DNA from: a virus
DNA length: 24,858 bases
IMG/VR virus record: IMGVR_UViG_3300036985_001595
Coordinates: 1-24,858 of that record
Direction: 5' to 3' (one strand)
This document shows, piece by piece, positions 5,594 to 24,858 of the stretch (the stretch's first letter is position 1; each line of letters begins with the position of its first letter). The notes under the pieces were generated by a model. It did no database searches. It was not told the DNA's origin and saw only the letters and a program-made list of their open reading frames with translations. The translations under genes were made by a program, and so were the position numbers.

Positions 5594-7680
5594 TGAGATT
5601 ATCTGAGATTGAAGCGTCATCTCAAGAAGCTCCTAAAGAGCCTTCAGTAAAGAAGGAGAGTTTACGCCTGTCTCAGTTACCCGAATCAGGGGAGACTTCT
5701 GAGTTTGAGACTGCTCGAAAAGCAGGGGAAAAATACTTTCCTAAGACACCTCTACCGCAAATTCTAGCGCCCACTGTTGCTGCTGGAGCTGGAGAGCTTG
5801 TTAAGGGAGCCGGTTCAGCACTTGAGCTAGTAGCTCCTGAGACCGGAAAGAAGGTCCGTGAGTATGGACGTGGCTTTGTAAGCGGGGTTCAGAAAGGACA
5901 GCCTTTAGGTGGGATTGTAGGACAGGTAGGTTCTTATGCGCTTCCATTTGCCGCCGCACAGAGGGGCGTGCAGTTCCTTAGAGGCGGCCAAGCTGCGACT
6001 TCATCTCTAGGTAGGGCCGCTGAGTTTGGGGCTGCTGGCGGGGCCGCTGGATTCGCTACAACACACGGCTCACCTGAGGAACGCACTCTTGCCGGCGCTC
6101 TTGGTGGTCTTGGCGCCGGTGGATTCAGTATTGCTTTTGACGTTGCTACTAAAGGACTGAAGTATGTCTCTGACACCCTAAGAAAAGCATACGGCGGGGA
6201 TGTAAAGAGACTGACTGAGGACTTGAGAAACTACGCAACAAAGCGCTCAGGCCATGAAGCTGACCTAGCTAAGACATTAGCTGACCAAGCGGAGCGTCAA
6301 GTAGGTCAAGCCGGGGTTAAAGCTGGAGAGGCTGAGAGCAGAGCTGCTGTAGCTGAGACCGCTGCTGGAAGACAGGCGCGTGCTGTAGGTACAGAATATG
6401 GAAGGCTTCCTGGGGTCGCTACTAAGGAAGAAGCTGGCCGGATGAAGCCTATACCGGCTTCAGAGGAATCTGTCGGAGACAGGATTCGTACTGCTGTAGA
6501 TTCTGTTTACTCAAGATTAAAAGAAGTTCGCAATACTAATGCGGAAAAGAATAAGGCGGCTGCTTTTGGGGAGGCTCTAGCTAAAGAAAAGTCTGGCCTT
6601 CGTGTTGAGGAGACAGATTCATTCAAGACAGCTATAAAGGCTATAGATGACGCTCTGATAAACCCGGAGACTAAGTTAGCCAATGTCCCTGTCCAAGAAG
6701 TCCGTAATCAACTTACTCAAGTAAAGACTGCATTACAGGGAAGACAGGTTGACCCGACAACAGGAATAGTTGTTGGCAAGCCGGTTAGCTTTGAGGGGCT
6801 TGAGCTAATGCGCCGTAACCTTAATGACAGAGCTTACGGCCTTCCAGCGGAGGGCTTTGACGCTATAGGGCAACAGCAAGCGGGTAAGCTGGCAAAGTCT
6901 ATAGAAGGAATCATGGAAGAGTTCTCTCCTAGCATCAGAACCTTCCTTAGTCAGTATAAGAAGGATTCTGCTCCCTTACAAATATTTAAGACTAAGACCG
7001 GCAAGATATTTGAAGAGCAGTTGCCTGGAGTTAAGGGTTACGCTAAGGTCCCTTCAGAGAACATTCCTGACAGAGTATTCAAGAACAGAGAGGGCTATCA
7101 AGGTCTAATTGAGGCGCTCGGCAATAATAGACAATTAGCAGAAGCAGAGGCAAAGCGATACTTTGTTTCTCAAATGGAGAAGCTGGCTGGAGACCCTAAG
7201 AAGCTAGAGGGCTTTATTCGTGATAACAGAACGATGCTCAACCTAACCAATGCTAGACCCGTAGTAGAGGGTTATCTGGCCCAGGCTAGGACGTTAACAG
7301 GCCGTGAGGCTGCTGGCACAGCAAGGGCCGGCGCAGAACGAAAGACAGCAGAACAGCTACGGAAAACTACAGTAGACACTCAGCCGGCCAAGTTAGCTCA
7401 GGAGTTTGAGAAGCTACAATCTGACCTGATTACAGCAAGAACTCCAGGTGAGGTTGCTAGACTGCATGAGTCATTAGCAGAGAAGTTATTGAGGGACAAA
7501 ACCATTAATCAGCAGCAATATCAGGAAATGATACGGCAAGCTACTAACGTATTGAAGTCAGTTGCAGATACAGAGGAAGCAAAGAGGCAAATACTAAGCG
7601 CGTCTTGGAGAGCCTTAGCTGGAACAGGGGCCGCAGGAGCAGCTACTTATCTAGGTGTAAAATCTTTAGGAGAACGATAA
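5593..7680 (+). CDS. Largest putative internal virion protein, 695 aa
   Basis: A 695-residue protein overlapping the previous stop by one base. Residues 50-190 include several Gly/Ala-rich hydrophobic segments (for example QILAPTVAAGAGELVKGAG, GGIVGQVGSYALPFAAA and AGALGGLGAGGFSIAF), able to insert in a membrane. The rest is a long, charged, Ala/Arg/Lys/Glu-rich helical region with coiled-coil character. A final hydrophobic segment near residues 670-690 (ALAGTGAAGAATYLGVKSL) ends the chain. Hydrophobic ends around a helical body resemble podoviral ejection proteins that form a trans-envelope conduit. I see no lytic transglycosylase motif (no clear E-S-x-x-N), so it lacks the lysozyme domain of T7 gp16. 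Confidence 0.68.
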   Translation: MRLSEIEASSQEAPKEPSVKKESLRLSQLPESGETSEFETARKAGEKYFPKTPLPQILAPTVAAGAGELVKGAGSALELVAPETGKKVREYGRGFVSGVQKGQPLGGIVGQVGSYALPFAAAQRGVQFLRGGQAATSSLGRAAEFGAAGGAAGFATTHGSPEERTLAGALGGLGAGGFSIAFDVATKGLKYVSDTLRKAYGGDVKRLTEDLRNYATKRSGHEADLAKTLADQAERQVGQAGVKAGEAESRAAVAETAAGRQARAVGTEYGRLPGVATKEEAGRMKPIPASEESVGDRIRTAVDSVYSRLKEVRNTNAEKNKAAAFGEALAKEKSGLRVEETDSFKTAIKAIDDALINPETKLANVPVQEVRNQLTQVKTALQGRQVDPTTGIVVGKPVSFEGLELMRRNLNDRAYGLPAEGFDAIGQQQAGKLAKSIEGIMEEFSPSIRTFLSQYKKDSAPLQIFKTKTGKIFEEQLPGVKGYAKVPSENIPDRVFKNREGYQGLIEALGNNRQLAEAEAKRYFVSQMEKLAGDPKKLEGFIRDNRTMLNLTNARPVVEGYLAQARTLTGREAAGTARAGAERKTAEQLRKTTVDTQPAKLAQEFEKLQSDLITARTPGEVARLHESLAEKLLRDKTINQQQYQEMIRQATNVLKSVADTEEAKRQILSASWRALAGTGAAGAATYLGVKSLGER

Positions 7681-7838
7681 TGGCACGGAAAATAGCAGAA
7701 GCAGGATATGGAGATGAAACTCCACCAAGAATAACCTACCGCAAGTCTGAAAAGAAAGCAGCTCCTACTAAGCGTAAGGTAGTAAGGAAAGCAGCTCCTA
7801 CTAAGCGTAAGGTAGTAAGGAAAGCTCGTGGCAAGTAA
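7680..7838 (+). CDS. Protamine/histone H1-like basic peptide with tandem repeat, 52 aa
   Basis: ATG 7680 overlaps the preceding TAA by one base, with AGGAG at 7669-7673. The 52-residue product has a short mixed N-terminus (MARKIAEAGYGDETPPRITY) followed by a strongly basic tail made of two identical copies of KAAPTKRKVVR and a final KARGK. The composition is like histone H1 tails or bacterial Hc1-like nucleoid proteins, so nonspecific nucleic-acid binding is likely. It may help condense or escort phage DNA. It follows the internal virion genes directly. A longer in-frame start exists upstream inside the previous gene but has no support. Confidence 0.75.
   Translation: MARKIAEAGYGDETPPRITYRKSEKKAAPTKRKVVRKAAPTKRKVVRKARGK
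7755..7820 (+). repeat. Perfect 33-bp tandem duplication
   Basis: Positions 7755-7787 and 7788-7820 are identical 33-base units (each begins aaagcagctcctactaagcg). They encode the two KAAPTKRKVVR copies of the basic peptide. Identity at every base, including third codon positions, implies a recent duplication or ongoing homogenisation. Confidence 0.97.
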
Positions 7839-11923: not shown

Positions 11924-12000
11924 TGGTGGGCTTGGCAGGACTCGAACCTGCGACCTCTCGCTTCGTAGGCGAGAATTCTATCCATCTGAACTACAAGCCC
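11924..12000 (-). tRNA. tRNA-Arg (anticodon ACG)
   Basis: The reverse strand folds as a complete cloverleaf. The acceptor stem is GGGCTTG (12000-11994) with CAAGCCC (11934-11928), followed by discriminator A and an encoded CCA (11926-11924). The anticodon stem is CTCGC/GCGAG around loop CTACGAA, giving anticodon ACG, which with inosine reads CGU, CGC and CGA. The T-loop is GTTCGAGTC. Length is 77 bases with CCA. The first G is shared with the stop codon of the upstream small gene, and the final A abuts the rusA start. Phage tRNAs usually supplement host decoding, though this junction also suggests a processing role. Confidence 0.96.
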
Positions 12001-12694: not shown

Positions 12695-13510
12695 TTAGAT
12701 TCCTTTGGATTGAGCATTAAGTTGAGCGAGTCTCGCGATATTGATTGCAGAAAGCGACTTGCGTGTTTCATCATTGGCCTCCCTGAAGAGAGCTATCTTC
12801 TCTGCTTTCTGGTCCGGCGTATACTTCTCTGAGCCACGAATCTTAGAGATGACTAAGACGTATGACGCTATCCAGTCTTCCTGTGTAGCATCATTAGAAT
12901 ATACCGTACCGTCCGGCAGATAGATTTGGTAGAAGTTAGGAATGTCGTCCTTCATTGCTATGAGAGCTTCAGCCCCAGACTTAGCTTGTTCTATAACTAC
13001 TTCAGCCTTTCCCATCGAACGCTCTTCAGGAGGGTCAAAGTCTTGTATCTCTTCTGGGGTATATGTACCTATCACGCAACCAGGATAAACGCTCCTGATA
13101 CCCTCAGATACGACCCTAGACCTAAGCATAGCTCGTGGGTATTTAATCCAGCCTGAGCTTGGCTTGACTAGGCCGATAGCCTTAGCTTGTTCTAGTGTCC
13201 AGCTTAACTCCAGACTGCCGCCATTAGGATGAGTGAAGAGACCAGTTACCTTCTCATCGGTATAGTCCTTCCACTCTACCTTACCACCGGCTTGTTGGAA
13301 TCGGGCCAGCATGGTATCAGCCTTGAGTGCAGGACGACCCTGGATGATATGGTAATCACGGGCCGCTGTTGCAGGATGCAGACCTTCAGCCTGAGCGATA
13401 GCCATTAAAGCTAGTACGCTGTTAGCGTCTGTCATACCGAACAGCTTAGACTTAGCCATTACTTCGGCCATTGCTTGCATATCAGTAAACGGAATGATTG
13501 CTGTGTTCAT
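12695..13510 (-). CDS. recT: RecT-family single-strand annealing protein
   Basis: A 271-residue protein, the typical RecT length. Recognisable blocks are IPFTDMQAMAEVMAKSKLFG (residues 6-25), SVLALMAIAQAEGLHPATA, RDYHIIQGRPALKADTMLAR, and GWIKYPRAMLRSRVVSEGIR with the conserved P-R-A-M-L-R-S-R. RecT proteins anneal complementary single strands after 5'-3' resection by a partner exonuclease. That partner lies upstream in the same operon, separated only by a 28-codon ORF whose stop overlaps this start (ATGA). The C-terminal 80 residues are charged and more variable. The ribosome binding site GGAG lies nine bases before ATG. Confidence 0.92.
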   Translation of the reverse strand: MNTAIIPFTDMQAMAEVMAKSKLFGMTDANSVLALMAIAQAEGLHPATAARDYHIIQGRPALKADTMLARFQQAGGKVEWKDYTDEKVTGLFTHPNGGSLELSWTLEQAKAIGLVKPSSGWIKYPRAMLRSRVVSEGIRSVYPGCVIGTYTPEEIQDFDPPEERSMGKAEVVIEQAKSGAEALIAMKDDIPNFYQIYLPDGTVYSNDATQEDWIASYVLVISKIRGSEKYTPDQKAEKIALFREANDETRKSLSAINIARLAQLNAQSKGI

Positions 13511-13593
13511 AATAGTTTCTCCGATAAAGTTAGGAATAAATCAACTACACTTGTTATTGCCATTGCCCATATTGCTATGTCAAGGTTGTTCAT
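13507..13593 (-). CDS. 28-aa membrane-type micro-ORF coupled between exonuclease and recT
   Basis: The frame begins at ATG 13593, overlapping the stop of the exonuclease gene (ATGA). It ends at TGA 13509-13507, overlapping the recT ATG in a second ATGA. The product is 28 residues with a hydrophobic centre, IAIWAMAITSVVDLFLTL, and one net charge at each end; it could be one membrane helix or an amphipathic helix. Perfect four-base overlaps at both ends are unlikely for a random spacer and argue that it is translated, at least to couple recT translation. No similar named peptide is known to me. The Shine-Dalgarno sequence GGAG of recT lies inside its last codons. Confidence 0.6.
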   Translation of the reverse strand: MNNLDIAIWAMAITSVVDLFLTLSEKLL

Positions 13594-14489
13594 TTGACGA
13601 TAAACCTTCTGCTACCAGGCTGTGCTACTACAAAGCTATCGTAGATGTCCGGCATTGCTGCTTCAAACAGAGAAGCATTGAATCTCTCCGATGACTTTGC
13701 TTGCTTCCAGGTCGCCAAGATAGTGCCGCCCACTGATACCAGCTCTGAACCTGTCTTCATGTAGTTCTGTATAGCTAACTGATACTGCTCTTCTGCTAGT
13801 TCCAGTTCCTTTATCTGCTTCTTGATAGACTTGAGCTGAGTCACTGCTTTCTCTACGTTGCTGCCGGCAGACACCCTGCTTCCATTGTCTACTGCGTACA
13901 CTAGCTTGGCCTGGGCCACTGTCTCCGGCTCTAGCGGCTGTCCTGTCTGAACGGCTCCCCAGTACAGGGCCATGTCCTTAATCAAGTCAGTCCTCTGGTC
14001 ATCAGTGATATCGAAGGTAAACGTCTCGAAGTTCTGGCCCCCAAATAAAACAGCTAAAACCACATGGTCAATACCGTGACAGGCGGACTGGTGAATGAGT
14101 TGAGCCATGTCAGCAGCAGGAACTATGTTAGCGTCAGAGTCGTACTTGTTACGGACGATAGCGTTATAGTTCTTAGCTTCAACTAGCGTCTTCCCGTCAG
14201 CAGATATGAAGTCAAAGTGACTACGCATCCAGACTTCTTTAGGATGAGTCAGCATATAGTCCGCGTTCTTGAGTTCCATCTTTAGGCGGTCTTGTGCTAG
14301 TCTTCCAATTAGCGGCTGCATTACATGGCCCATTTGAACTGCCTCTACATCGGACAGGTCAGGGGGAGTCTTTAGGCCCAATTTAGTGAGTACCACTTCA
14401 TTACCGCGTCCGTTAGCAGCTTGTCGGCTGTCACTTGCCCACCAAGCAGCGTTACGAATGTCCGGCTCGAAGTCTTGTCTATCGTTCAT
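13590..14489 (-). CDS. YqaJ-type viral recombinase exonuclease
   Basis: A 299-residue protein with the layout of lambda-exonuclease-like YqaJ nucleases. An N-terminal helical part includes AAWWASDSRQAANGRGNEVV. A block GHVMQPLIGRLAQDRLKMEL (54-73) follows, then the PD-(D/E)XK core: H-F-D93-F and V-E104-A-K106 (LVEAKNYNA). MAQLIHQSACHGIDHVVLAV is the conserved Q-x-x-H helix-strand. After residue 210 comes a coiled-coil helix (KSIKKQIKELELAEEQYQL) typical of the C-terminal end. The enzyme would degrade the 5' strand of double-stranded ends and hand the 3' strand to RecT. AACTGGAG lies ahead of ATG 14489. Confidence 0.9.
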   Translation of the reverse strand: MNDRQDFEPDIRNAAWWASDSRQAANGRGNEVVLTKLGLKTPPDLSDVEAVQMGHVMQPLIGRLAQDRLKMELKNADYMLTHPKEVWMRSHFDFISADGKTLVEAKNYNAIVRNKYDSDANIVPAADMAQLIHQSACHGIDHVVLAVLFGGQNFETFTFDITDDQRTDLIKDMALYWGAVQTGQPLEPETVAQAKLVYAVDNGSRVSAGSNVEKAVTQLKSIKKQIKELELAEEQYQLAIQNYMKTGSELVSVGGTILATWKQAKSSERFNASLFEAAMPDIYDSFVVAQPGSRRFIVK

Positions 14490-17541: not shown

Positions 17542-18393
17542 TTATGCTGCTATCGCTAATGACTGCTCATCTAATAGATTGATGTAATTAGCGGCCTTTT
17601 GTGCAAGGGCAGACGCCTTAAAGATAGCCTTATCATCCGAACGACAAGCTTTTAACCAGTGTTGGATGTAACCGGCATGACGTAGTTCACCCTTGATTCT
17701 ATAGTCCTGGCATAAGAAAGCCGCGCCCATTTCAGCGACTAACTCTTCGAAGGCGTATTCAGGATTGCCGAACTTAGTTCCTAGCGTCCGGTCTAGTCTA
17801 GTCTTAGCGCTGGTCCAGTGTGTCAGTTCATGGAAAGCAGTCGCATAATAACTGCCGGCGTCTTGGAATGTTACCTTATTGGGTAACTGTATCTTGTCAA
17901 GTGATGGAGAGAAAAAAGCAGCGTCACCGCCATGAGAGATAATAGCCCCTGTCTTGGCTATACGTTGTTCTGCTTCATATATAGAATTGAAAGGCGTATC
18001 AGGCACCGATACCGGTGTAATCTCAATACCGTCAACTTGGCTTGCATTGAATACAAAGTAAGCCTTTATAAGATTGTATGTCTCACTATCGCCGGTGGCC
18101 TTATTCTCTTTTGTAACCGGTGAGTAGAATATTATTTTCGTACCTTTTTCACCTTTCCTTACACTGGCCCCTAGCGCTTGCCATTGTTTGAATGAACCCC
18201 ATACCGGCGTATTGAATGATTGGCACATGGAACTCATACCCAGGATAAGGCGATTGATACCGGCGTATGGTTTTTGGCTTACGATGTTCTTATCCGCCGT
18301 ACTATCGGCTGACCAGGGCTTAATCCAGGGCGCGGCGCCCTTCTCGAGCTGCTCTATGATGCTATTCGTCACTTCGTGATAGATTGTACTCAT
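17542..18393 (-). CDS. ardC: ArdC-like antirestriction protein
   Basis: A 283-residue protein from ATG 18393 (AGGTG upstream); a GTG nine bases earlier is in frame. The N-terminal half is the ArdC ssDNA-binding domain: APWIKPW (21-27), KPYAGINRLILG (41-52), VWGSFKQWQALGASVRKGEK (64-83). The C-terminal half is a metallopeptidase-like domain with H188-E-L-T-H192-W and a following Y-A-F-E-E-L-V-A-E-M-G-A helix giving the third zinc ligand. ArdC proteins protect incoming DNA from type I/II restriction. A first position next to a sigma70-like promoter in the control region fits immediate-early expression. Confidence 0.93.
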   Translation of the reverse strand: MSTIYHEVTNSIIEQLEKGAAPWIKPWSADSTADKNIVSQKPYAGINRLILGMSSMCQSFNTPVWGSFKQWQALGASVRKGEKGTKIIFYSPVTKENKATGDSETYNLIKAYFVFNASQVDGIEITPVSVPDTPFNSIYEAEQRIAKTGAIISHGGDAAFFSPSLDKIQLPNKVTFQDAGSYYATAFHELTHWTSAKTRLDRTLGTKFGNPEYAFEELVAEMGAAFLCQDYRIKGELRHAGYIQHWLKACRSDDKAIFKASALAQKAANYINLLDEQSLAIAA

Positions 18394-18440
18394 GATGTTC
18401 ACCTCGCATAGTTAGGATGTATTGAGTGTTGCTGCATATC

Positions 18441-19156: not shown

Positions 19157-19431
19157 CCGTTCTCGCTTCTCTGGAGGACGGAGTAACGGTTGAAGAGCAG
19201 CTTAGGGCTACCCGCTTAACTTTCAAGATAGAGGCTAACAAGGTACGGCAATGCTTAACTCCGGCTGAGAAGAGAAACCTAGTTGCCTATTGGAATAGCC
19301 GGTTCTCGCCCCTATTTGTTAAAGAGTTGATAGGAATGGCTAAAGACCGGAGAAACTGCGAGAAGATAGCGCAGTGGGACCTAGATAAGTTAACAGTGAA
19401 GCCTAATAACTTTACAGTGAGGACCAAATGA
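19141..19431 (+). CDS. Hypothetical protein upstream of TerL, possible small terminase
   Basis: It starts at GTG 19141 with GGAG at 19130-19133. The 96-residue product is helical and basic: TVEEQLRATRLTFKIEANKV, LTPAEKRNLVAYWNSRF, LFVKELIGMAKDRRNCEKI and a basic tail. Its stop overlaps the TerL start (ATGA). A small DNA-binding helical protein just before TerL is the usual place for a small terminase, and T7 gp18 is of similar length. There is no sequence motif that proves it, so this is a positional guess. Confidence 0.6.
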   Translation: MENRLTVLASLEDGVTVEEQLRATRLTFKIEANKVRQCLTPAEKRNLVAYWNSRFSPLFVKELIGMAKDRRNCEKIAQWDLDKLTVKPNNFTVRTK

Positions 19432-21200
19432 AGTTCAGCCTCAAACAGTTCTACGAATTCTGCTCTCACTTAAAGATTGAGACTAAAGAGCTTGGGTTAC
19501 GCAAGATGGATAACCTCATGGGGACTCAGACCTATGTTATGGATGAGATTAGCAAGGGACTGAAGGAGGACATCCACTTCTTTGTCATTCTGAAGGGACG
19601 GCAGTTAGGAATCACTACAATCAGCCTAGCGCTAGACCTTTACTGGCACTTTGCTAATGAAGGTCTGCAAGGAACGCTTACTACAGACACAGAAGAGAAT
19701 CGGGATATGTTCCGGTCTACTTTAGCGATGTATATGGAAGGATTGCCGAAGGAATACAAGATTCCTTTGATAACTCACAACAGAAACCAGCTTTCTCTCA
19801 AGAATAGGTCCAGATTATTCTATCAAGTAGCGGGATTACGCGCTAAGGGGTCTCTAGGGCGCGGTAAGGCGATAACCTTCCTTCATGGTACTGAGACCTC
19901 AAGTTGGGGCGATGAAGAGGGCCTAGCCTCTCTGCTGGCGTCACTTGCAGAACAGAATCCAAACAGATTGTATATCTTTGAATCTACGGCTCGTGGGTTC
20001 AATATGTTTCATGATATGTACATGACTGCTAAGAAAGCCAAGACACAGAGAGCAATATTCTGCGGTTGGTGGCGTAATCAGTTTTATTCTGCTGACCCGA
20101 ACTCCGATGTCTACAAAGTCTACTGGGATGGAAAGCTAACGCCGGAAGAGAAGGAATGGACTAAGGATATTAAGAAGCTGTATGACGTAGAGATTAACTC
20201 AAGACAAATAGCTTGGTGGCGCTGGAAGCTGCATGAAGGGATTAAGGATGACGCCCTGATGTATCAGGAGTTCCCTCCCACAGAAGACTATGCCTTTATA
20301 ATGAGTGGAACCAGTTTCTTTTCTAATTCGAGGTGTACAGATGCCGCTAAGATTGCTAAGAAGATTGCCCCAGACTACTACCGCTACAGCATGGGAGCGA
20401 ACTTCCAAGACACCGAGGTTATTAAGTCTACAGAGAGGATGTCTACTCTCAGCGTGTGGGAAGAACCCATTGATACCGCTTATTATGTTATTGGTGCTGA
20501 CCCCGCTTATGGTAGTTCTGATTGGGCTGACCGTTTTTGTATTCAAGTCTACCGATGCTATGCTGACGGTCTTGAGCAAGTAGCCGAGTTTGCAACCAGT
20601 GAGATGAACACCTACCAGTTTGCTTGGGTGATAGCTCATCTTGCTGGCGCATACAAGAACTCTACCCTCAACTTAGAAGTCAATGGGCCAGGACAGGCCG
20701 TTATCAATGAGCTGCGTAACCTAAAGCGACAAGCGTCAGCTATGGGCGGGACTATGGGTAAAGACTTGCTCGATGTCTACGGCAATATGCAGAACTACAT
20801 CTGGAGGCGTAACGATACTCTTGGTGGCATGAGCAACAGCATTGGCTGGCTAACAACCTCCGCTACTAAAGAACGGATGCTGTCCTACATGAAGGACTAC
20901 TTTGAGCGTGGCATGATGGATGTCTACTCTATGGACCTACTAGAAGAGATGAAGACCATCGTCCGTGATGGCGGCTCTATTGAAGCTAGTGGCCGTAATA
21001 AGGATGATAGAGTCATTGCTACCGCCTTAGCGTGTGCAGCCTATGCAGAACAGGTTCAGCCTAGACTTATCCAGCAGCGTGTTTCCCGTGCCGTATCTCG
21101 CGCACAAGAGACTAAGACTCCAGAACAAGTAGCTATGGGCCGTAATGTCAGTGATTACCTAAAGCGCATTGGTGTTTATGGAGGCCGTAATGACTCATAA
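19428..21200 (+). CDS. terL: Terminase large subunit
   Basis: A 590-residue packaging motor, complete. The ATPase has a Walker-A-like KGRQLGIT (56-63), a Walker-B region AITFLHGTETSSW (148-160) and a coupling motif FESTARGFN (184-192). The nuclease domain shows G-A-D358-P-A-Y-G-S-S-D-W, LNLEVNGPGQAVINEL with E417, and NKDD527RVIATALA, the RNase H-like triad. It would translocate and cut concatemeric DNA at the portal. No intein or insertion is visible. Which packaging type it represents cannot be told by eye. The opposite-strand frame at 20199-20639 is a shadow. Confidence 0.96.
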   Translation: MKFSLKQFYEFCSHLKIETKELGLRKMDNLMGTQTYVMDEISKGLKEDIHFFVILKGRQLGITTISLALDLYWHFANEGLQGTLTTDTEENRDMFRSTLAMYMEGLPKEYKIPLITHNRNQLSLKNRSRLFYQVAGLRAKGSLGRGKAITFLHGTETSSWGDEEGLASLLASLAEQNPNRLYIFESTARGFNMFHDMYMTAKKAKTQRAIFCGWWRNQFYSADPNSDVYKVYWDGKLTPEEKEWTKDIKKLYDVEINSRQIAWWRWKLHEGIKDDALMYQEFPPTEDYAFIMSGTSFFSNSRCTDAAKIAKKIAPDYYRYSMGANFQDTEVIKSTERMSTLSVWEEPIDTAYYVIGADPAYGSSDWADRFCIQVYRCYADGLEQVAEFATSEMNTYQFAWVIAHLAGAYKNSTLNLEVNGPGQAVINELRNLKRQASAMGGTMGKDLLDVYGNMQNYIWRRNDTLGGMSNSIGWLTTSATKERMLSYMKDYFERGMMDVYSMDLLEEMKTIVRDGGSIEASGRNKDDRVIATALACAAYAEQVQPRLIQQRVSRAVSRAQETKTPEQVAMGRNVSDYLKRIGVYGGRNDS

Positions 21201-22371: not shown

Positions 22372-22866
22372 ATGTCGGTTTTACACGATTACAAATGCGC
22401 GGAACATGGATATTTTGAAAGCTATGAAGCAGTCTGTCCTAATGGATGTATTGATGATGTTATGGTCGTCTTTCTTCAGGCCACAGGAACAAGGTCAGAC
22501 GCAACCAAAAAGAACGACAAAACAATCAAGCAACTCGCCATTGACTTTGGTATGTCCAACATCAAGTCCACGCGAGAAGGTGAGAGTCAGACTGGTTTCT
22601 ACAAACGGAACAACAAAACCCCGGACGTCGAAACCCAGAGTCAGAGTATCCCTCAACCAGCGCAAAGGGAAGCCCGTGCTGGTGACTCAGCAATCTGGGG
22701 TGGTGGATACAGAGGGCTAAACATGAAGTCCATTCTCTCTGGACAAGCAGTTCGCTCGATACACGGGGAAAGCGTTGGGATGAATCCGAAAGAAGTCGGA
22801 GACTTAAAGGGGCCACAAGCCGCAAGCTACGTTGCTGACCACGATAACCTACAGATTAAAAAATGA
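22372..22866 (+). CDS. Zinc-ribbon N-terminal phage protein, 164 aa
   Basis: The ribosome binding site is strong (GGGAGGGG, 22359-22366). Residues 6-28 form a zinc ribbon: Y-K-C9-A-E-H12-G-Y-F-E...V-C22-P-N-G-C26. The rest is mostly polar and disordered, rich in Gln, Ser, Lys and Gly, ending in QIKK. Its stop overlaps the portal start (ATGA). FmdB-like ribbons of this sort are regular neighbours of portal genes in some aquatic phages. A structural or assembly role is likely; no enzyme motif is seen. The frame at 22406-22720 is a shadow. Confidence 0.72.
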   Translation: MSVLHDYKCAEHGYFESYEAVCPNGCIDDVMVVFLQATGTRSDATKKNDKTIKQLAIDFGMSNIKSTREGESQTGFYKRNNKTPDVETQSQSIPQPAQREARAGDSAIWGGGYRGLNMKSILSGQAVRSIHGESVGMNPKEVGDLKGPQAASYVADHDNLQIKK

Positions 22867-24479
22867 GAATACCAACAGAACATAATGCTAGAGAACAGTT
22901 CTACCGAGACCTGATAGAGAAGTGTTCAATCTCCTTGCCTGAGCGTAAGGGCGACTACTCTACTCTTCGGTCTTGGTTCTTGTTTGGCTCAGGTCCAGAC
23001 GAGTCTCCCTGTATCTTCAACAAGATTTATCCACACATTGACCAGCTAACATCTTTTCTCTACTCAGCAGAGACTACTCGCTTCTCTATCAATACCGGAG
23101 CTAGTGTCCCTGAGGCCGAGCAGATAAAGATACCTAAGATGACGGCTGCTCTGAATGATGAGTGGCTAAACTCTAATGCTGACCAAGTATTCAGTACCGC
23201 CCTAACCTGGGCGCTTGTGTACAACACTACTTACATAAAGTTGGTTGTAAACAACGGGATACATCCGTACATGATAGAGCCTGGAGCTATTGGCGTGCTG
23301 CGGGAAGATACTCCGTACACAGACAGGCAAGAAGCCCTTATTCAAACGTACTACATTACTAAGTCAGAGCTTTACAGCCGCTTGTATAGCCACCCCAAAC
23401 GCGACCAGATTGTTAAGCGTGTCTCTACAAATGTTCATAGCATCACGGATGACATACCCGAAGGGCTTGACCGTATCGTAATGAGTCAGACAAACCCTAC
23501 GTTGTACGGGACAGTTAATCTAGATTTGTACGGAATGAACCGGTACAAGGCTCGTGTAGCTGAAGATACCGTCAAGATGACCGAGCTTTGGGCGTGGAAT
23601 GACGAGACTAAGGACTACCAAGTAGTCACTATGGCTGACCCAGATATTATTATTTACGATAGACCTGGGGCAAGTGTCTTCATGCGTGGTGAACTACCGT
23701 TTGTGCAGATATGTCCTAACCCACAGTACGACTACTACTGGGGTCAATCAGAGGTTCAGCGCCTTGTCTTCTTACAGCAGCTAAGAAACCAGCGCATGAC
23801 TGAGATTTTAGACTTACTTTCTAAGCAAGTTAACCCTCCAACTACCCTTACCGGCTTTACCGGCATACTTGATGAGAAGAATTTTGCTCTCAATCGTGCT
23901 GGCGGACTGCTTGCGTCTGATATGCCTAATGCTAAAGCAGAGCGTCTAGCTCCACAGATGCCACCGGAGTTGTTTGAGGTTATCCATGAAGTTGATTCCA
24001 TGTTCTCTGAAGCGTCAGGAATCTCTAACATCCTCTCCGGCAAGGGAGAAGCAGGGGTTCGCAGCGCTGGACACGCTTCTCAACTGGCCCGTGTTGGCTC
24101 TAGCCGCGCTAAGAAACGTGCTTTAATTGTTGAAGACAGTCTTGAAAAGGTTGCAACTCTCTACTTGAAGCTGATGCAAGCGTATGACAATACCCACTTT
24201 GTTGACGAACATGGCAATAAATTTATTGCAGAACAGTTCACAAAGGACTATGTTGTGAAAGTAGACGCTCACTCTAATAGTCCTATCTTTACAGAGGACT
24301 TACGTCAACTTGCTTTCAACTTGTTTAAGGCGCAAGCTATAGATAAGGAGTCGCTACTTGACTTGCTAGAACCGCCAATGAAGCAGCTCTTGGTGGAAAA
24401 ATTAAAGAAGAGAGAGTTAGAGAATCCTAAAAAAGAATCTGCCGGAAAGCCGGGGCCAGATATAGGAGGGGGAGAATAA
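22863..24479 (+). CDS. Portal protein
   Basis: A 538-residue head-tail connector. The start RIPTEHNAREQFYRDLIEKC is followed by SPCIFNKIYPHIDQLTSFLY (wing region), a stretch with ALTWALVYNTTYIKLVVNNG, and PFVQICPNPQYDYYWGQSEV. The C-terminal region has QRLVFLQQLRNQRMTEIL, ASGISNILSGKGEAGVRSAG, and SRAKKRALIVEDSLEKVA, typical of phage portals that form a 12-fold ring. It follows TerL after three small genes, as usual. Its stop overlaps a 54-codon gene. Confidence 0.93.
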   Translation: MRIPTEHNAREQFYRDLIEKCSISLPERKGDYSTLRSWFLFGSGPDESPCIFNKIYPHIDQLTSFLYSAETTRFSINTGASVPEAEQIKIPKMTAALNDEWLNSNADQVFSTALTWALVYNTTYIKLVVNNGIHPYMIEPGAIGVLREDTPYTDRQEALIQTYYITKSELYSRLYSHPKRDQIVKRVSTNVHSITDDIPEGLDRIVMSQTNPTLYGTVNLDLYGMNRYKARVAEDTVKMTELWAWNDETKDYQVVTMADPDIIIYDRPGASVFMRGELPFVQICPNPQYDYYWGQSEVQRLVFLQQLRNQRMTEILDLLSKQVNPPTTLTGFTGILDEKNFALNRAGGLLASDMPNAKAERLAPQMPPELFEVIHEVDSMFSEASGISNILSGKGEAGVRSAGHASQLARVGSSRAKKRALIVEDSLEKVATLYLKLMQAYDNTHFVDEHGNKFIAEQFTKDYVVKVDAHSNSPIFTEDLRQLAFNLFKAQAIDKESLLDLLEPPMKQLLVEKLKKRELENPKKESAGKPGPDIGGGE

Positions 24480-24643
24480 TGGCAATCAAAGATGCAGTCG
24501 CTCCTAAAGCTGACCAGCCACTACAGATGACACGCTCCTTATCAAAAGGAGAGGGTCCAGCAAAAATGCAGTACCGTGTTACGGGGATAAGGTCTCCTAG
24601 CGCTCGTAAGCAGAGCAAGTCTAGGGAAGCATCACGGATTTAG
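24479..24643 (+). CDS. Small basic peptide, 54 aa
   Basis: ATG 24479 overlaps the portal stop (TAATG). The 54-residue product is MAIKDAVAPKADQPLQMTRS at its start, then LSKGEGPAKMQYRV, then a Ser/Arg/Lys-rich end (SPSARKQSKSREASRI). Codons and overlap fit the operon. No family is recognised. A linker or scaffold-associated role is possible. The opposite-strand frame at 24427-24618 is a shadow. Confidence 0.62.
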   Translation: MAIKDAVAPKADQPLQMTRSLSKGEGPAKMQYRVTGIRSPSARKQSKSREASRI

Positions 24644-24717
24644 TATTCCGTAAAAGGAATAGGGTGTGGCTGCTTCCCCTCTGAAGTAGGTGGCCGCTGC
24701 TATTAGGAGAAATTCAC

Positions 24718-24759
24718 ATGGCACGTCGTTCACGCAAAGGTCGCAAGGCTCGCAAGTAA
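24718..24759 (+). CDS. 13-aa ultra-basic micro-peptide
   Basis: An AGGAG at 24705-24709 lies eight bases before ATG 24718, which opens a frame of 13 codons encoding MARRSRKGRKARK; eight of 13 residues are Arg or Lys. The perfect ribosome binding site and the following hairpin make it look like a complete tiny gene. Such peptides bind nucleic acid; the DNA-packing J protein of microviruses is a precedent for size and charge but not homology. It may instead be a leader peptide for the hairpins downstream. Confidence 0.5.
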   Translation: MARRSRKGRKARK

Positions 24760-24761
24760 TT

Positions 24762-24843
24762 AATCGGGACTAGCTCCCGATTGATACTTCAGTCCAGACT
24801 GAAACCTCCCTGAGGGGTCGGGAAATAAAATATTGACCCCTCA
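24762..24843 (+). other. Three consecutive hairpins
   Basis: AATCGGGA...TCCCGATT (24762-24783), TTCAGT-CCAG-ACTGAA (24787-24802) and TGAGGGGTC...GACCCCTCA (24811-24843) form three stems of 8, 6 and 9 pairs. None is followed by a clear T-tract. TTGACA, a -35-like hexamer, follows at 24848-24853 near the end of the window. Termination, mRNA protection or a packaging-related role are all open. Confidence 0.7.
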
Positions 24844-24858
24844 CTTATTGACAAAGTT

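Follow-up and report, generated by a model that had tools for sequence, protein, structure and literature searches.

Comparison with relatives shows that a 13-codon ORF near the end of the window, the IMG/VR virus record of 24,858 bases analysed here at its full length, is a real protein-coding micro-gene (B) of a tandem Arg/Lys-rich family carried among the head genes by a group of uncultivated freshwater phages. A conserved RNA pseudoknot adjoins its ribosome site. The record has no larger genome behind it and ends within the head-gene block (Table 1).

Table 1. Features of the head-gene block in the window (by eye: structure or element picked out by inspection)
Feature	Coordinates	Strand	Description	Basis
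Terminase large subunit	19428..21200	+	Same gene block, upstream of B	PHROGs, Pfam
Portal protein gene	22863..24479	+	SU10_portal family	Pfam PF23899, E 8e-10; PHROGs portal
54-codon ORF	24479..24643	+	ADQP motif; between portal and micro-gene; conserved neighbour	
Hairpin before pseudoknot 1	24644..24661	+	TATTCC/GGAATA; hairpin at same place in many relatives	By eye
Pseudoknot 1	24661..24695	+	H type; stem 1 24661-24664/24677-24680; stem 2 24668-24675/24688-24695	
Shine-Dalgarno site of B	24705..24709	+	AGGAG; 8 nt spacing to ATG 24718-24720	Sequence
Micro-gene B	24718..24759	+	13 codons; product MARRSRKGRKARK; stop TAA	Sequence and relatives
Hairpin directly after B stop	24761..24784	+		By eye
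Second hairpin 3′ of B	24786..24803	+		By eye
Pseudoknot 2	24807..24842	+	Stem 1 24807-24810/24820-24823; stem 2 24812-24819/24835-24842; A/U-rich crossing loop 24824-24834	
TTGACA, −35-like element	24848..24853	+	Probable promoter of next gene; interrupted by window end, runs on in L001	By eye

Coding evidence for the micro-genes

A sequence-only reading had proposed a thirteen-codon ultra-basic gene behind AGGAG, and its coordinates, product and stop all held up on inspection. The product has five Arg and three Lys among its 13 residues, a net charge of +8 and no acidic residue. A two-strand search of the window for ORFs that are 10-20 codons long, contain no less than 60% K/R and have a Shine-Dalgarno motif yields it as the sole match, and the same criteria return no match in 200 dinucleotide-shuffled versions of the window.

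The set of relatives combined 80 IMG/VR loci found via the portal protein, two scans with divergent portals and MW202753, giving 118 distinct portal-end windows. The earlier reading had offered conservation of frame and charge in relatives as a check, and the check succeeds: ultra-basic micro-ORFs, one to three per locus, occur in 102 of the 103 distinct loci where no less than 400 nt follow the portal (two in 83 loci, one in 15, three in 4, none in 1). The sole locus without one, L140, has the B sequence with ATA replacing ATG. Six of the first 80 loci are without a micro-gene, and in each the contig runs no more than about 215 nt past the portal stop. The commonest layout is a gene A (MYKKMKRGRKTRR and variants), a spacer, and then B (MARMKRKGRKGRK, MARKARKGRKSRK and variants). 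B stands without A in the window and in L001 and L002, which are closely related to it, three micro-genes are present in L012 and L130, and the loci counted as single-gene include some where A starts with GTG (L174).

Selection was assessed on distinct 42-nt copies, 24 of A and 25 of B, using codon pairs with a single difference; such counts come from related sequences and so are not independent events, but their direction is clear. Synonymous pairs make up 869 of 952 for A and 941 of 1062 for B, and the nonsynonymous/synonymous ratio normalised by opportunity is 0.029 (A) and 0.044 (B). The amino acids of both genes are conserved through synonymous change, as in protein-coding sequence. One of the motifs AGGAG, GGAG, AGGAGG or GGAGG precedes 166 of 188 distinct micro-ORF contexts, most commonly at a spacing of 6 nt, and CGT/CGC accounts for 87% of Arg codons in the micro-genes versus 67% in the portals at the same loci; strong Shine-Dalgarno sites and preferred Arg codons suggest high output. 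The stop context TAAT, found in 108 of 188 micro-ORFs and 100 of 145 portals, is no better represented than in portals and so does not single out the micro-genes.

The Arg and Lys residues are not interchangeable. Residues were counted from the stop codon in distinct peptides of at most 16 residues, taking as B those micro-ORFs preceded by the pseudoknot 1 motif. In the 29 distinct B peptides, Lys is found at −1 in 27, at −4 in 28 and at −7 in 28, and Arg at −5 in 28; among the remaining 56 peptides, mainly A, position −1 is Arg in 50, −4 is Lys in 50 and −5 is Arg in 52. The free Arg/Lys exchange expected under pure bulk charge is found in neither A nor B. Because Arg and Lys keep set positions, a bias for which the CGN-to-AAR codon distance may account in part, more than bulk charge matters.

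A portal-independent scan of IMG/VR with a degenerate DNA pattern for B returned at least 120 stretches at no fewer than 80 loci. Among the 80 B-pattern loci listed, 72 have a portal of this family no more than 1.2 kb upstream, so that within the reach of the scan the micro-gene is specific to this place; 7 others have too little upstream sequence, and one (L417) has no portal hit but does have both the 54-codon-ORF motif and the downstream protein. The GenBank records with this portal in the phage collection are MW202753 and MW202825, and both encode A and B. Neither A nor B is annotated in either record, where the region is instead covered by hypothetical genes called on the minus strand, in agreement with the earlier remark that normal gene calling would miss so short a gene. 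A chance ORF is ruled out for B by the shuffles, the synonymous bias, the presence in relatives and the B-pattern scan, and a piece of a longer protein by the conserved stops and Shine-Dalgarno sites.

Three ORFs lie between the terminase large subunit and the portal in the window; the terminase of Hydrogenobaculum phage 1 is 34% identical. In L082 (MW202753, a circular record of 35,640 bases from a related phage), the micro-genes are followed in the head block by genes for a 162-residue protein, a pair of small proteins and the major capsid protein, which places the micro-gene between the portal and capsid genes. The next protein 3′ of the micro-genes has a mean net charge of −10.4 at loci without micro-genes (n=43) and −3.8 at loci with two micro-genes and pseudoknot 1 (n=86), both being raw means over related loci. 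L049 has an additional charged ORF of 51 residues, with a Shine-Dalgarno site of its own, between A and the pseudoknot.

The earlier reading had grouped B with two further small basic peptides, and that grouping is weak. The 54-residue product is real, conserved in relatives and moderately basic (net +8), but it belongs to a separate gene that is present without any micro-gene in L200 and L281; its window copy has no PHROGs match, and the L082 copy matches neither Pfam nor PHROGs. The 52-residue ORF (7680-7838), with two KAAPTKRKVVR repeat copies at its end, does exist, but the matching gene in L082, the one relative compared, encodes an unrelated, acidic protein of 67 aa. Elsewhere on the minus strand of the window are adjacent genes for a RecT-like annealing protein and a RecE-like exonuclease (12695-14489) and a gene that strongly matches an anti-restriction protein family of phages (17542-18402; phrog_7245, E 2e-83).

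RNA structures flanking B

Pseudoknot 1 ends 9 nt before the Shine-Dalgarno site of B in the window and, by eye, about 7-10 nt before it in relatives, a placement just 5′ of the ribosome site of B as expected of an autogenous operator. It was evaluated in an alignment (A1) of 45 sequences chosen for diversity, comprising 42 of 81 distinct upstream stretches together with the window, L197 and L198; near-duplicates and L012, which has no pseudoknot 1, were omitted before counting, and the structure was derived from the same sequences. Compensatory changes on both sides are seen in 11 of 12 pairs, and 92.8% of the 540 cells hold standard pairs. On none of five measures does any of 500 shuffles match the observed value, and pairing falls to 44-64% when the partner strand is slid by 1-3 columns. 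U-G and G-U pairs stand beside C-G in most of the sequences (A1 columns 26-28 with 48-50).

Searched sequence by sequence, 44 non-redundant loci gave a mean pseudoknot 1 score of 26.3 versus 18.3 shuffled; 28 of the 44 beat all 25 shuffles and 31 beat at least 24, the weaker loci being largely of the L009/L020/L029 kind, with an internal mismatch loop in stem 2. A crude regular-expression marker for the motif, which gives false positives in clades without micro-genes and also defines B in the residue counts above, is present in 78 of 80 B-pattern loci among the matches listed. Pseudoknot 1 travels with B rather than with A and therefore probably governs B.

On the 3′ side, the hairpins that the sequence-only reading placed at once after the stop are there, and behind them lies a further pseudoknot that it had missed. 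Since the MAFFT alignment behind B (A2) contained too many gaps for pairs to be counted fairly, pseudoknot 2 was evaluated only by per-sequence searches against shuffles, in L001 (a near-identical copy) and 44 non-redundant relatives. Over the 44 loci the best pseudoknot in this region scored 30.0 on average versus 21.3 shuffled, with 29 loci beating all 25 shuffles and 39 beating at least 24. At many loci pseudoknot 2, with an A-rich crossing loop, follows B after zero to two hairpins.

Relatives without B (L199, L217, L238) carry, by eye, a hairpin with a T-run that resembles a terminator, ahead of the next promoter-like TTGACA, and pseudoknot 2 stands at this place in the B-bearing phages L039 and L082. 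Pseudoknot 2 may be an unusual 3′ end; as an intrinsic terminator it was rejected, the U-tract being absent. The promoter-like TTGACA is found behind pseudoknot 2 in many relatives (by eye) and is absent in L023, L060 and L069.

Rfam searches of 12 sources at the gathering score matched neither pseudoknot and found only tRNA elsewhere, which in the window is a minus-strand gene at 11927-12000 (66.9 bits). At a relaxed threshold, window positions 24400-24858 gave two sub-threshold matches to human lncRNA models (E 1.3 and 5.9), and a search of L039 6750-7100 gave no match. A supported match to a known riboswitch or other Rfam RNA is absent from these scans.

Distribution on the portal tree

The search was widened by two scans with portals from more remote branches. 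In all, 186 distinct loci extend 450 nt or more past the portal; under a laxer charge limit, 98 of these have two micro-genes, 38 have one, six have three and 44 have none. Sister groups (L200/L281-L307 and L215-L238) keep the portal and the 54-codon ORF without a micro-gene, and its function is therefore dispensable or replaced there. The groups of L151, L313 and L261 have A alone and no pseudoknot, and in one group (L199, L201-L208) a less basic ORF of 18-21 residues stands where A would be.

On a portal tree of 82 dereplicated loci, where L001 stands in for the window (which has too little sequence after the portal), micro-gene presence or absence needs 6 changes versus a shuffled mean of 26.6, and micro-gene count needs 15 versus 37.9. 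A and B occur together in several deep branches of a 56-row clade, which suggests, on a quick tree with a midpoint root, that the pair is old in that clade and has been lost several times. L012 and L130 have the same three micro-peptides; L130 is on a long separate branch, and its portal is 77% identical to that of L012, so that cassette exchange between phages, or a chimeric portal, is possible. Three related contigs fall in metagenome bins labelled Legionella, Balneolaceae and Alphaproteobacteria, bins of viral contigs being unreliable guides.

Possible roles of the peptide and its pseudoknots

The whole explanation that we favour, tentatively and as something short of probable, is a nucleic-acid-binding peptide of the head or of packaging, with pseudoknot 1 setting its translation. 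The B peptide would be abundant late in infection, alongside the portal and capsid proteins, and would bind nucleic acid through Arg and Lys contacts in a set pattern, its most likely role being that of a polycation in head assembly or DNA packaging; position, charge and the set pattern together suggest nucleic-acid contact in one of these processes. Pseudoknot 1 would act on B translation either as an enhancer for docking bS1/30S or as an operator, and the hairpins with pseudoknot 2 would shield or end the 3′ side of a short message. The sequence-only reading had likewise suggested small polycations that neutralise packaged DNA or act in assembly. That idea is supported in part: the gene is conserved and lies between portal and capsid genes, but bulk charge alone does not suffice, and it leaves the covarying pseudoknot of B unexplained. 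The set positions fit specific recognition of RNA or protein better than bulk neutralisation of DNA.

Free peptides of 13 residues are likely short-lived, which counts against the favoured role. The J protein of the microvirus phiX174, an ssDNA phage without a portal, is packaged, basic and about two to three times as long as B. Both are very small Arg/Lys-rich products of the head region, and J is thought to meet the packaged DNA; B is shorter and belongs to a portal-bearing phage.

Pseudoknots at translation start sites have precedents. The available text of two papers (PMC3014915, PMC10931766) describes T4 gp32 and the ribosomal proteins S15, S4 and L20 as binding pseudoknots that overlap, or lie 5′ of, the start sites of their own genes or operons; in the second, several basic RNA-binding proteins repress their own genes via pseudoknots, and bS1 has a high affinity for pseudoknots, so that pseudoknot 1 could be an enhancer. 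The T4-type gene 32 pseudoknot, described in 2010 as perhaps the sole viral case in translational autoregulation, also lies upstream of a phage start codon, and gp32 binds nucleic acid, as B putatively does (PMC3014915, available text). That pseudoknot, 67 nt upstream, is the nucleation site for cooperative binding across an A+U-rich leader, whereas pseudoknot 1 ends close to the Shine-Dalgarno site and the product is a mere 13-residue peptide. S15 (rpsO) is similar in having a small basic product and a pseudoknot at or just upstream of the ribosome site (PMC10931766, available text), RNA binding being putative for B; its determinant is a U-G/C-G motif, of which the U-G and G-U pairs next to C-G in pseudoknot 1 are reminiscent, as a lead only, and B has no homology to S15.

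These precedents also bear on an autogenous reading, under which B, as an arginine-rich-motif peptide, would recognise pseudoknot 1 in its own message, possibly pseudoknot 2 as well, and would repress or time translation of B or neighbouring head genes. The nearness of pseudoknot 1 to the ribosome site, its company with B rather than A, the set Arg/Lys positions and the cases of T4 gene 32 and the ribosomal protein operons (PMC3014915, PMC10931766, as available) all suit it. We regard it as a possibility on the unlikely side, given that A-type genes occur without any pseudoknot (L151, L313, L261), that L012 and L130 have three micro-genes but no pseudoknot 1 and that the two pseudoknots have no obvious binding motif in common. 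Quite unlikely, in our estimate, is a nascent-peptide arrest leader, in which the basic chain in the ribosome tunnel slows or stalls the ribosome and alters the folding of the RNA behind. The length is suitable, 13 residues being still inside the tunnel, conservation is strongest beside the stop codon with an N-terminal part of variable length, and RNA structures flank B on both sides; yet the Arg codons are mainly CGT/CGC, an A-type gene occurs without downstream structure (L313), and in many relatives a promoter-like TTGACA (by eye) separates the micro-genes from the next gene, so that a leader could not govern that transcript.

A host-takeover peptide directed at the ribosome or rRNA would resemble the tiny basic ribosomal proteins bTHX and eL41 in composition and size, a likeness in kind; location in the late head-gene block and linkage to the portal and capsid genes make this very unlikely. 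That the ORF arises incidentally within a conserved structured RNA, unselected as a peptide, we find scarcely credible: the RNA structure around B is conserved and L140 has ATA where ATG is expected, but changes in A and B are overwhelmingly synonymous with constant amino acids, Shine-Dalgarno site, start and stop are all conserved, and A-type genes remain where the RNA structures are missing.

No description of this micro-gene/pseudoknot system came up in the literature searches made, and a term search of PMC11323111 likewise found none. The GMSC catalogue accepts smORFs from 30 nt, and its families are likewise short unannotated microbial genes; the available text of that paper (PMC11364881) mentions no tandem micro-genes accompanied by pseudoknots. 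A doubtful but more far-reaching reading, beyond the head or packaging peptide favoured above, is a new phage element, in which tandem Arg/Lys peptides of about 10-16 residues with dedicated pseudoknots form a minimal peptide-RNA regulatory or packaging pair in the head operon, the peptide recognising its own pseudoknot and perhaps the packaged genome.

A phage gene can thus be strictly conserved at a length of only 10-14 codons and escape annotation. Here two covarying pseudoknots, unmatched in the Rfam scans run, lie next to a gene whose product looks nucleic-acid-binding. If B binds its pseudoknot, the two would be among the smallest natural protein-RNA regulatory pairs; if B is packaged, it would be among the smallest DNA-condensing proteins of a tailed phage.
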